Below, in pieces: positions 12,603 through 16,245 of a DNA stretch of 52,910 nucleotides. The stretch comes from Ignavibacteriaceae bacterium (GTDB lineage: Bacteria > Bacteroidota > Ignavibacteria > Ignavibacteriales > Ignavibacteriaceae), in assembly GCA_031292455.1 (NCBI GenBank), contig JARLHC010000040.1:1-52910 (forward strand), given 5' to 3'. A program made the translations under genes and the position numbers. The notes beneath the pieces are model-generated. The model was given only the letters and a program-made list of their open reading frames with translations, was not told the DNA's origin and searched no databases. The stretch's first letter is position 1. Each line of letters begins with the position of its first letter.

Positions 12603-13307
12603 TTATAACTTTGGGTTCTTGATACCTTCAATTCTTCTTCCCCCCATAAATCGTTGAGAGTAATAATCAAGATCAAGAGAAGATACAATAACTCCATTTT
12701 TTGAACTAGAATGAGCAAAAAGATTATCGCCAATATAGATGCCAACATGTCCTGGACGGACTCTTCTTCTGGTATTAAAAAATACAAGATCGCCAAATTG
12801 CAGTTTTTCACGTTCATCAACAATAAAGCCCTGAGTATATTGATCCCGTGCTGATCTTAAGAGATCCACTGAAAAAGTGTTCTGAAAAATAGTTTGAGTA
12901 AAAGCAGAACAATCGATTCCACTTTTTGAACTCCCTCCAAATTTATAAGGAGTATCAAGATATTTAATAATTTCCATTAACATCTTTTCTTTCAATGAAT
13001 TATCAACTGGTAAATTCTTCGAATCTTTGTTTGTCCCAATTTTCTGTAATATTGAAGAAATATCTAAGGATTGAGTCTGATCAGGAAGTTCCTCTGAATC
13101 TGCATCATCAGATATTTCGTCATTATTGCTGGAATCGGAAACAATACTAGTTTTAGAATCCTTTGAAGGAAAGCGAGTATTAGAATCGTCCTTTTCTGTT
13201 TGTTCACCCCCGGGTTTAAAGCGGACTGTGTTTGATGATGAGGAACAGCCAAGTATCAAAATGACACCTGATATACCAATCATCATAAACCGGATTAGTA
13301 TTTTCAT
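12603..13307 (-). CDS. NlpC/P60 family lipoprotein peptidase
   Basis: The 234-residue product starts with a lipoprotein signal (MKILIRFMMIGISGVILILG then Cys21, lipobox LILGC), so it is lipid-anchored. Residues 22-100 are a Ser/Asp-rich, disordered linker. The rest is an NlpC/P60 domain with catalytic Cys133 in GIDCSAFTQ, His187 in RPGHVGIYIG and His199 in FAHSS, the triad used to cut peptidoglycan stem peptides (gamma-D-Glu to meso-DAP type bonds). It begins three bases after the stop of the sigma factor gene and must share its transcript. The cell-wall role is inferred from the family. Confidence 0.92.
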   Translation of the reverse strand: MKILIRFMMIGISGVILILGCSSSSNTVRFKPGGEQTEKDDSNTRFPSKDSKTSIVSDSSNNDEISDDADSEELPDQTQSLDISSILQKIGTNKDSKNLPVDNSLKEKMLMEIIKYLDTPYKFGGSSKSGIDCSAFTQTIFQNTFSVDLLRSARDQYTQGFIVDEREKLQFGDLVFFNTRRRVRPGHVGIYIGDNLFAHSSSKNGVIVSSLDLDYYSQRFMGGRRIEGIKNPKL

Positions 13308-13310
13308 TTT

Positions 13311-14165
13311 TTATCCTAAATATGATTTTAAATTTTTACTTCTTGAAGCATGCCTTAACCTCCTGATAGCTTTTTCTTTTATTTGTCTTACTCTTTCCCT
13401 TGTCAAATTAAATTTTTCACCTATTTCTTCTAAAGTAAGTGAATGTTCTTTATTTAAACCAAAATATAACTTTACAACTTCAGCTTCCCTCTCAGATAAA
13501 GTAGATAGTATTCTATTGATCTCTGCTTTTAGAGATTCATTCATTAATAAATGGTCCGGAGCCGGGTGCTCCTCATTTTCTATCATATCTAAAAGTCTGT
13601 TCTCCTCACCCTGAGCAAACGGAGCGTCCATAGAGACATGCCGCCCTGAAATTTTCAGTGCCTCGCTAACTTCGTTAACATCCATCTCCAGTTCTTTAGC
13701 TAGTTCAGCTGAATTAGGCTCCCTTTCATATTCCTGTTCAAGGCTGCTATAAGCTTTTCCAATTTTGTTAAGGGCGCCTACTCTATTAAGGGGTAACCTT
13801 ACGATCCTGGATTGTTCAGCAAGAGCCTGAAGTATAGACTGCCTTATCCACCATACGGCATACGAAATAAATTTGAATCCCCTTGTTTCATCAAATCTGC
13901 TAGCAGCTTTTATAAGTCCGAGGTTTCCCTCATTAATCAAATCCCCCAAAGCAAGGCCTTGATTTTGATACTGTTTGGCTACGCTAACCACAAATCTTAG
14001 ATTTGCCTTTGTAAGCTGTTCAAAAGCATTCCTGTCCCCCCTTCGAATTTTAATAGCAAGCTGAATTTCATCGTCAGGAGAGAGGAGGTCAACTTTACCG
14101 ATTTCCTGAAGATATTTATCGAGGGATTGGCTTTCACGATTAGTAAATTGTTTAGCAATCTTCAA
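13311..14165 (-). CDS. rpoD: Primary RNA polymerase sigma factor, short Bacteroidota-type
   Basis: The 284-residue product contains sigma regions 1.2 to 4.2 without region 1.1 or a large non-conserved insert, as in primary sigma factors of Bacteroidota (about 286 aa). Conserved blocks include [17 protein letters not shown] (region 1.2), [19 protein letters not shown] (2.1-2.2), [14 protein letters not shown] (2.3-2.4, promoter melting and -10 binding) and [19 protein letters not shown] (4.2, -35 helix). The start is TTG at 14163-14165 with GAGG upstream. It sits between two microcompartment vertex genes and an NlpC lipoprotein, 21 bases after the former and 3 before the latter. That neighbourhood is unusual for the housekeeping sigma factor. 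It should direct transcription from most promoters in this window. Confidence 0.95.
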
Positions 14166-14186: not shown

Positions 14187-14450
14187 CTATATATTTATCG
14201 AATCAATAATTCCAACTATTGATGCGTCAACAGGGGCAAAATCAACAGGCAGTGGAATTACCGCTTCAGACGCAGTAATATAAAAAATAATCTCACCGGA
14301 TCCAGATCCTACTGTATCCACAGCAATAATAGGTTCACCAATATTAGTATGTTCTGCATTGATAGGTTGAACTAAAAGTAATTTAAAGCTTTTCAAAGCT
14401 TCGTACTTTTGTGTAGCCCAAATATTACCAATTACTTTGCCAAGGAACAA
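14187..14450 (-). CDS. EutN/CcmL family microcompartment vertex protein, copy 1
   Basis: The 87-residue product matches the EutN/CcmL (BMC-P, pentamer) family that caps the vertices of protein-shelled microcompartments. It has FLGKVIGNIWATQKYEALKS at the start, LLLVQPI, the AVDTVGSGSGEIIFYITASE loop and a C-terminal VDASIVGIIDSI. Usual family length is 85-100 aa. Translation starts at a TTG preceded by AGGAAG. It lies 21 bases before the sigma factor gene and 85 after the second copy. It differs clearly from copy 2, so the two are old paralogues. No BMC-H or BMC-T hexamer shell gene is visible in the window, so shells, if made, need genes elsewhere. Confidence 0.9.
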   Translation of the reverse strand: MFLGKVIGNIWATQKYEALKSFKLLLVQPINAEHTNIGEPIIAVDTVGSGSGEIIFYITASEAVIPLPVDFAPVDASIVGIIDSINI

Positions 14451-14535
14451 ATATACTTCCTATATTTTATTATAAAGTGGTAGAATTAAAAAGTTTACTA
14501 AAATATAACAATAGATTTTGAAAAAAAAGTAAAAA

Positions 14536-14835
14536 TTATACGTTTGATTTTTCTGATAACATTTCTTTTATTGAAACATCTAGTTTATCAACTATCGCCA
14601 TCACAACAGCATCAACCGGTTTATTTTTTGTTATTATAGTTTGTCTGGCTGAACTGCCTGAGGCAACTAAAACTATTTCTCCTTCGCCGGCTCCCACACT
14701 ATCAACAGCTATTAAGAAGTTACTTTTTGCCTTAAAATCCAGATCCAATTGTCTGATAATTAAGAGTTTTGATCCGATTAGATTTTCATCTTTTTTAGTC
14801 GACCAGACAGTTCCAATTACTTTTCCCAGTATCAT
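14536..14835 (-). CDS. EutN/CcmL family microcompartment vertex protein, copy 2
   Basis: This 99-residue protein is the closer match to canonical EutN/CcmL. It has MILGKVIGTVWSTKKDENL, KLLIIRQLD, AVDSVGAGEGEIVLVASGSS then ARQT, and VDAVVMAIVDKLDV before a 12-residue polar tail. It would form pentamers at the vertices of a shell. A GGAGG site lies ten bases before the ATG, and a good promoter (14879-14907) is just upstream, so the unit EutN-EutN-rpoD-NlpC may start here. The gene upstream is deoB, a pentose-phosphate enzyme whose product feeds deoxyribose-phosphate aldolase, an enzyme encapsulated in some microcompartments; a link is only inferred. Confidence 0.92.
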   Translation of the reverse strand: MILGKVIGTVWSTKKDENLIGSKLLIIRQLDLDFKAKSNFLIAVDSVGAGEGEIVLVASGSSARQTIITKNKPVDAVVMAIVDKLDVSIKEMLSEKSNV

Positions 14836-14878
14836 TTATTTAAAACCTCCGAAGGATGCTAAAATATATAATTGCGCT

Positions 14879-14907
14879 AATATACCTTTCTCAATTAAAA
14901 TTTACAA
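14879..14907 (-). promoter_or_regulatory. Predicted promoter of the EutN-EutN-rpoD-nlpC unit
   Basis: On the minus strand TTGTAA (14902-14907) and TATATT (14879-14884) are spaced by exactly 17 bases and lie 44 bases before the ATG of EutN copy 2. The -10 box is identical to those before rpsL and tRNA-Tyr. The -35 box overlaps the stop codon of the possible small ORF. Confidence 0.55.
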
Positions 14908-15042
14908 TTCCCCATTTATAAATGTTCGCAATAGAACTATTTCTTCCAATTTTTTAATCTTTTTTAACGATTTATCCATATCCTTATGGTAAAACTCCAT
15001 ACCACAGTACAACAATAGCGACCAATTAATTAGTAAATACAT
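14902..15042 (-). CDS. Possible small ORF (46 aa) between deoB and EutN
   Basis: An ORF of 46 codons runs from ATG (15040-15042) to TAA (14902-14904) in the 246-base gap after deoB. The first 14 residues are hydrophobic (MYLLINWSLLLYCG); the rest is a charged helix-like stretch containing DKSLKKIKKLEEIVLLRTF. An internal ATG would give 32 residues. The only ribosome-site candidate, AAGG, is 12 bases from the first ATG. It could be a small peptide or a leftover frame. No family is recognised. Confidence 0.3.
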   Translation of the reverse strand: MYLLINWSLLLYCGMEFYHKDMDKSLKKIKKLEEIVLLRTFINGEL

Positions 15043-15081
15043 AGTTTTTGAACACCTTGCTTCACTCTACAAATATGGTAA

Positions 15082-16245
15082 TTATTCGTAAAGAAAACTT
15101 TTCCCTTCTAATGAATTTCTTACCTTAAAGAATTCAGCAACTGTTTTGGCAACATCAGCAAATGTACTTCTGGTTCCAAGGTTTTTTCCTACTCTTCCTT
15201 TTTGGTAAAATAATAAAGGTACATACTCCCTGCTATGATCAGTACTAACAGAAGTAGGATCATTTCCATGATCGGCGGTTATAATTAATAAGTCTGTTTC
15301 ATGTAATTTGTTAAGAAATTCCGGAAGAAATTCGTCAAATTCATTTAGAGCATTAGCAAAGCCGAATGGATCATTTCTATGACCATAATACACATCAAAA
15401 TCGACAAGATTTGCAAAGATAAATGAATTATTGGATTTGACAGAATATTCCAATAATTTCAAACAACCTTCTTTATTTGATTTCGTCTTTTCCTGAATCG
15501 AAATTCCCTTATAATTAAACAGATCATTAATTTTTCCAATAGCTACAGTCGGAATATTGTTTTTTTGTAGCAGATCCAAAATAGTTTCCGAAGGAGGATC
15601 TAACGAAAAATCTTTCCTATTTGTTGTTCTTTTATATGTTCCGGGTGCACCTAAAAATGGACGAGCAATTACTCTTCCCACATGTAAAGGAGCTGTAAGA
15701 ACCTTATGGCGGGTAATTTCACAAATTTCATAAAGTCGATTTAATGGAATGGTTTCCTCATGACACGCAATTTGGAATACCGAATCTCCTGATGTATATA
15801 CTATTGGAAATCCTGTTTTCTGGTGTTCTTCCCCCAGTTCCTTAATAATTTCAGTTCCGGAAGCGGGTTTATTACCAAGAACACCTTTGCACCCGGTTAA
15901 ATGAAGAAATTTATTGATCAATTCTTCAGGAAACCCATTAGGAAAATATGAGAAATCTTTTGTGATCTTTAATCCAGCTATTTCCCAGTGTCCGGAAGTC
16001 GAATCTTTCCCTTTTGAAACCTCAGTCATTTTACCAAAAGAAGCCTCCGAAGATTGAACCGGAGGAATTCCATTAATTGAAACAATATTACCTAGCCCCA
16101 TTTGTGTAAGATTAGGTAGATTTAATCCCTTAACAACTTTAGCTATATTAGAAAGTGTATTACTTCCCAAATCACCATATATATCAGCATCAGGTAATTC
16201 GCCAACTCCAACGCCATCCAATATTATAATAAAAAAATTATTCAA
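15082..16245 (-). CDS. deoB: Phosphopentomutase
   Basis: The 387-residue enzyme interconverts ribose-1-P or deoxyribose-1-P and the 5-phosphates, feeding nucleoside salvage or breakdown into central metabolism. Alkaline-phosphatase-superfamily signatures are visible: the first metal site ILDGVGVGELPDA with Asp10, the phosphoacceptor region KGKDSTSGHWEIAG, and the second metal sites LIITADHGNDPTS and TDHSREYVPLL. Length matches DeoB (about 390-407). The start is a TTG because no ATG lies before the essential DGVG motif; no clear ribosome site is seen. It follows the GAF/GGDEF gene after 35 bases and precedes the EutN genes. Other deo genes are absent here. Confidence 0.95.
   Translation of the reverse strand: MNNFFIIILDGVGVGELPDADIYGDLGSNTLSNIAKVVKGLNLPNLTQMGLGNIVSINGIPPVQSSEASFGKMTEVSKGKDSTSGHWEIAGLKITKDFSYFPNGFPEELINKFLHLTGCKGVLGNKPASGTEIIKELGEEHQKTGFPIVYTSGDSVFQIACHEETIPLNRLYEICEITRHKVLTAPLHVGRVIARPFLGAPGTYKRTTNRKDFSLDPPSETILDLLQKNNIPTVAIGKINDLFNYKGISIQEKTKSNKEGCLKLLEYSVKSNNSFIFANLVDFDVYYGHRNDPFGFANALNEFDEFLPEFLNKLHETDLLIITADHGNDPTSVSTDHSREYVPLLFYQKGRVGKNLGTRSTFADVAKTVAEFFKVRNSLEGKSFLYE

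Follow-up and report, generated by a model that had tools for sequence, protein, structure and literature searches.

Contig JARLHC010000040.1 of the Ignavibacteriaceae assembly GCA_031292455.1 carries, between the phosphopentomutase gene deoB and the gene for an RpoD/SigA-like sigma factor, two adjacent genes for vertex proteins (BMC-P) of bacterial microcompartments, here called Pa and Pb. We propose that they encode two of the three vertex pentamers of one microcompartment of the dispersed-gene (FRAG) type, probably a deoxyribose-phosphate metabolosome of the sugar phosphate utilization (SPU) type, and put the probability of this reading at about 0.82. What is observed are the genes, their fixed and scattered places, the targeting-like extensions of three enzymes and the co-occurrence of these features. 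Positions refer to the window, the whole 52,910-nt stretch analysed; the genome to which it belongs comprises 3.36 Mb in 171 contigs and is 97% complete. The vertex genes are:

14536..14835, minus strand: Pa, a BMC-P vertex protein of the EutN/CcmL family, 99 residues (PF03319, E 1.5e-30)
14187..14450, minus strand: Pb, a BMC-P vertex protein of the EutN/CcmL family, 87 residues (PF03319, E 6e-27); the start codon is presumably TTG

Each protein spans the full PF03319 profile (positions 1-83 of 83), and the two are 38% identical, which bears out an original prediction, made from the letters of this DNA alone, of two EutN/CcmL paralogues between deoB and a sigma factor gene. Among solved structures, Pa comes closest to the EutN/CcmL-type vertex proteins 5v74/6mzx, 4i7a and 6owf, and Pb to 4i7a and 5v74; we take 5v74/6mzx to be shell vertex proteins of Haliangium ochraceum (HO). 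Orthologues of Pa at 69-93% identity are found in 17 relatives.

Where is the remainder of the shell? The original prediction had remarked on the lack of hexamer (BMC-H) and trimer (BMC-T) genes nearby, and no gene with the hexamer/trimer domain PF00936 is present on the window's contig. The genome-wide check that it had recommended, run by protein family, uncovered four PF00936 domains elsewhere, on contigs C70 and C147. C70 encodes BMC-H1 (92 residues) and BMC-H2 (260 residues, with a long tail), adjoining ruvX/spoT and ybbR/tmk; C147 encodes a tandem BMC-T, adjoining a PduS/RnfC-like gene truncated by the contig end (neighbouring genes on both contigs were named by eye). The complete neighbour of BMC-T in a same-genus genome, G025, is an RnfC-family protein. 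For BMC-T itself the nearest solved structures are those of PduT and PduT-like proteins (3nwg, 3pac, 3n79), and it displays 'TICSGKY' at the position of 'TICPGKF' in one solved PduT-type protein, a stretch that we take to be the site of the iron-sulfur cluster cysteine. The BMC-H pair occupies an identical setting in most loci fetched from relatives, and BMC-H1 is 90-100% identical where matched. Pa and Pb are the only PF03319 matches of the window's assembly; most genomes with the vertex pair have three PF03319 genes, and in 16 relatives the third (Pc) lies directly before dprA. Shell genes on the window's contig (C69), C70 and C147, together with the dprA-linked vertex gene of relatives, show the dispersal that defines FRAG, and those other than the vertex pair adjoin housekeeping genes of their own (ruvX/ybbR, dprA).

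Could the pentamers instead act without a shell, as the original prediction also allowed? A vertex pair with no hexamer gene nearby invites the idea, but hexamer and trimer genes are present in the same genome, and nearly all of the 46 family genomes classed as having the pair carry PF00936 genes; we regard a shell-free role as extremely improbable. The window's genome did not show the combination of a complete microcompartment locus elsewhere, having its own vertex genes, with an absence of conserved synteny of the pair. Some relatives do possess separate microcompartment loci (L158-L161 and L320; L162-L165 and L321), with EutE-type dehydrogenases bearing N-terminal peptides; G018 has such a locus, with a EutE-type dehydrogenase, alongside the scattered system. 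As a separate observation, the long variable tail of BMC-H2 (L007 10470-11252; relatives L079-L097) closes in a motif, about 'LNVHQLRRLARSTENFPIKGREISKANR..LL.YF', that is strongly conserved, matched no known Pfam domain and, by eye only, is reminiscent of SAP or Rho_N segments.

The first candidate cargo enzyme is the deoxyribose-phosphate aldolase DeoC (L098 3461-4339, 292 residues; TIGR00126 above cut-off). Its catalytic core begins at residue 72, preceded by an N-terminal extension of about 72 residues; the original prediction had suggested looking for a deoC with encapsulation-peptide extensions. Within the extension lie a stretch of helical character and, after it, a conserved segment, 'CKGWETNVVTQPKAV..IV..GA.RIAAG.G'; conservation over 41 genomes is 76% in the helix, 80% in the segment that follows and 83% in the core. 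Genomes with the vertex pair carry a single copy of this extended DeoC, and relatives without the pair have different, mostly shorter DeoC N-termini. A stronger PF01791 match on contig C73 was set aside as cargo aldolase because it occurs in genomes with and without a shell.

The second candidate is an acetylating acetaldehyde dehydrogenase of about 530 residues (TIGR02518-like, its 615 bits being below the cut-off of 620), which is found as a single copy in nearly every pair genome. Its C-terminus is a helix-like tail resembling an encapsulation peptide and ending in 'GISEEEIKKIIKDFK' or similar. In the window's genome it appears as a contig-edge fragment, the last 110 residues with the tail, where contig C55 starts. 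The three full-length PF00171 matches found in that genome were rejected as cargo, since by eye they look like the proline, methylmalonate and succinate-semialdehyde types and not like acylating ones. In genus g17 a mere 7 kb or so separates the gene for the tailed dehydrogenase from the vertex pair (L319 13593-15152; G059 C9).

The third is RpiB, which exists in two forms: a plain one of about 150 residues and an extended one of about 210-230 residues. The extended form (L324 2683-3330, 215 residues, in the window's genome) is present in nearly every pair genome, one copy each. A profile of its N-terminus matches residues 2-50 of E. coli EutQ (E 3e-7, small database), and the corresponding N-terminal helices of Salmonella EutQ bind the shell (PMC12487888).

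Do these enzymes follow the vertex pair? Association was counted in 49 genomes with a completeness of 90% or more and a contamination of no more than 5%. Traits were called by script and by eye from the lengths of reading frames and from motifs; G063 was set aside from the pair-absent counts, since a contig end interrupts its pair. Where the pair is present, the DeoC extension is found in 32/32 genomes in which DeoC was found, the dehydrogenase in 30/33 and the extended RpiB in 32/33. The corresponding values where the pair is absent are 0/14, 0/15 and 1/15. On a tree of RpoD and DeoB the vertex pair switches between presence and absence at least 8 times; no contrast runs in the opposite direction, and all three contrasts on supported branches are concordant for DeoC. 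Two genomes look like stages of decay: G009 retains Pa, lacks Pb and the dehydrogenase and has a degenerate DeoC extension, and G069 has no vertex genes and an eroded DeoC extension, with the extended RpiB retained. What the original prediction had called conceivable, a deoxyribose-linked shell with its genes split over the chromosome, is thereby strengthened: hexamer genes lie elsewhere, and an extended DeoC, a tailed dehydrogenase and an extended RpiB accompany the pair.

In the organelle that we propose, DeoB would supply deoxyribose-5-phosphate to DeoC, and the toxic, volatile acetaldehyde would be confined and converted to acetyl-CoA by the acetylating dehydrogenase. NADH would be re-oxidised via the PduS-like flavo-iron-sulfur protein and the PduT-like trimer in the shell, and the RpiB-type isomerase would be co-encapsulated. 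BMC-H1, BMC-H2 and BMC-T would make up the shell facets, the corners of which Pa, Pb and Pc would close.

Several points weigh against this proposal. Shell formation, shell contents, substrate and direction of flux are deduced, and all evidence is computational. Raw Fisher values of 4.5e-10 to 7.6e-9 take no account of shared ancestry and precede the last additions; independent contrasts number only 3 on supported branches and 6 on the best tree, and with 3 supported contrasts significance is out of reach (sign test, p = 0.25). Neither a third vertex gene, in the PF03319 search, nor dprA was found in the window's assembly, so the third gene may sit in an assembly gap. No PduL phosphotransacylase was found in the window's genome. 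The DeoC extension is unlike a textbook encapsulation peptide in that its 'linker' is conserved, and the mean amphipathicity of its helix, 0.56, lies between the background median of 0.43 and the 95th percentile of 0.68; hydrophobic-moment scoring fails to set targeting-like helices apart from background. Finally, the extended RpiB (L324 and 17 others) has 'DATG', once 'DAVG', at the position of the active-site cysteine; the sequence there is VCGSG in a plain RpiB of the same genome (L304). The reaction of the extended form is uncertain because of this replacement, and a different sugar phosphate may be its substrate.

Might the vertex genes, then, serve a FRAG microcompartment whose aldehyde comes from another enzyme, the extensions of DeoC and RpiB having some different use, for instance in contacts between enzymes in the cytosol? 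The tailed dehydrogenase by itself is compatible with any source of acetaldehyde, the DeoC linker is conserved in the manner of a protein contact surface, and no signature enzyme accompanied the published FRAG loci (PMC8217296). Yet both extensions come and go with the vertex genes, that of RpiB resembles the shell-binding end of EutQ, and deoB is the constant upstream neighbour of the pair, though it is also there without it. We consider another aldehyde source unlikely and favour the deoxyribose-phosphate metabolosome.

The immediate surroundings of the vertex genes, all on one strand as the original prediction had it, are:

15082..16245, minus strand: deoB, phosphopentomutase (NF003766 532 bits, TIGR01696 473 bits, both above cut-off)
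14836..15081, minus strand: the gap from deoB to Pa, 246 bp, measured on the sequence
13311..14165, minus strand: the RpoD/SigA-like sigma factor, with sigma-70 regions 1.2, 2, 3 and 4
12603..13307, minus strand: an NlpC/P60 lipoprotein (PF00877, E 1.5e-27)

The product of DeoB, deoxyribose-5-phosphate, is the substrate of DeoC. The sigma factor has no region 1.1 and scores under the curated RpoD cut-offs. The span first proposed for the vertex genes, which ran to 14907, takes in about 70 bp upstream of the first of them.

The order deoB-Pa-Pb-rpoD, whose conservation the original prediction had proposed to examine, is complete in 41 family genomes; in others it is interrupted by contig ends, and G077 is irregular. 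In the 41 fully covered family loci deoB lies upstream of Pa. A set of 80 named loci, mostly from records labelled Ignavibacteria or its members, are the best-scoring of 461 and therefore no random sample; 75 of the 80 have the full order, two stop short of rpoD and three are without deoB, one of which starts at a contig edge. Given its completeness in the 41 family genomes and the 75/80 named loci, the order is not due to chance.

Does it signify a tie to the housekeeping sigma factor, the feature that the original prediction had found odd? From the end of Pb to rpoD, both on one strand, the distance is 21 bp, as a regulatory link, for example growth co-expression, might have it. The neighbourhood of deoB and rpoD, however, exists without the vertex genes: the two remain adjacent in 15 relatives lacking the pair (in G020, also without the pair, they are not adjacent within the stretch read), the order GAF/GGDEF-deoB-rpoD-NlpC survives in such relatives, and the NlpC/P60 gene, a bystander in the syntenic block, follows rpoD whether vertex genes are present or not. 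The other shell genes, moreover, stand beside different housekeeping genes (ruvX/ybbR, dprA). The vertex genes were inserted or lost at a stable housekeeping site, so the sigma factor requires no functional link; it is probably a neighbour at that site, outside the system. Because deoB and rpoD adjoin in the 15 pair-less relatives, the association looks incidental, and we hold the regulatory explanation to be very unlikely.

Other genes also occur at this site. In some relatives that lack vertex genes, deoB and rpoD are separated by a PIN-domain gene (L288 2678-3313, L289 941-1505, L294 941-1505), and G058 has one at this site beside the pair (L319 5860-6288); the two open reading frames tested, those of L288 and L319, match PF01850 with E of about 2e-7, and in three loci a small open reading frame accompanies the gene. 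G009 has two rpoD-like genes in tandem at the site (L316 3159-4013 and 4981-5835), near its lone Pa gene.

How does the proposed organelle relate to known ones? The published FRAG microcompartments of Ignavibacteriae have BMC-P triplets, and no signature enzyme was identified for them (Sutter et al. 2021, PMC8217296); their substrate was stated to be unknown, and that catalogue calls FRAG enigmatic and expresses the hope that its function will come to light through an environmental factor. Scattered shell genes, three BMC-P paralogues and occurrence in Ignavibacteriae link the present system to FRAG, an assignment judged by layout and triplet; the triplet is present in most pair genomes, and the window's assembly shows two PF03319 genes. 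In contrast to FRAG as published, without signature enzyme or function, a probable enzyme set can be named here.

SPU microcompartments contain DeoC, RpiB and a dehydrogenase and are predicted to use DNA-derived deoxyribose phosphate (Axen et al. 2014, PMC4207490; PMC8217296). Here a DeoC-type pfam01791 aldolase and an RpiB-type pfam02502 isomerase, in extended forms that track the shell genes, are candidate members of the system, and the SPU aldehyde dehydrogenase (pfam00171) with a targeting peptide has its counterpart in the tailed TIGR02518-like protein. Unlike SPU, which has enzymes and shell genes in one locus, they lie on different contigs or far apart here, and deoB stands beside the vertex pair. 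The HO microcompartment shares the BMC-P triplet, and in some genomes a pfam01791 aldolase encoded far away bears an N-terminal extension that resembles an encapsulation peptide (PMC8217296); HO differs in having a main locus, and the shell trimer here is PduT-like. The satellite loci of CcmK3/K4 in beta-carboxysomes likewise hold shell genes obligately far from the main locus (PMC8217296); such a main locus exists there, and none was found here. Melioribacter roseus has seven BMC-P genes over five loci (PMC4207490).

In the literature outside subscription journals and preprints we found neither a function assigned to FRAG nor FRAG joined with SPU. The FRAG layout and the SPU enzyme set are each already known; the probable cargo set appears to be the new element. 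A wider reading, which we venture only tentatively and consider doubtful, would make deoxyribose-phosphate organelles of all FRAG microcompartments, within Ignavibacteria and beyond; their signature enzyme would have escaped notice as its gene stands alone, and DeoC would be held in the shell by a conserved folded segment and not by a simple encapsulation peptide. If our proposal for the window's system is true, a FRAG-type organelle can be given a substrate, along with three cargo enzymes and three short segments for their targeting. A signature enzyme would then be findable by its extension and by co-occurrence where gene neighbourhood is uninformative, and the use of DNA-derived sugar may be widespread in Ignavibacteria.
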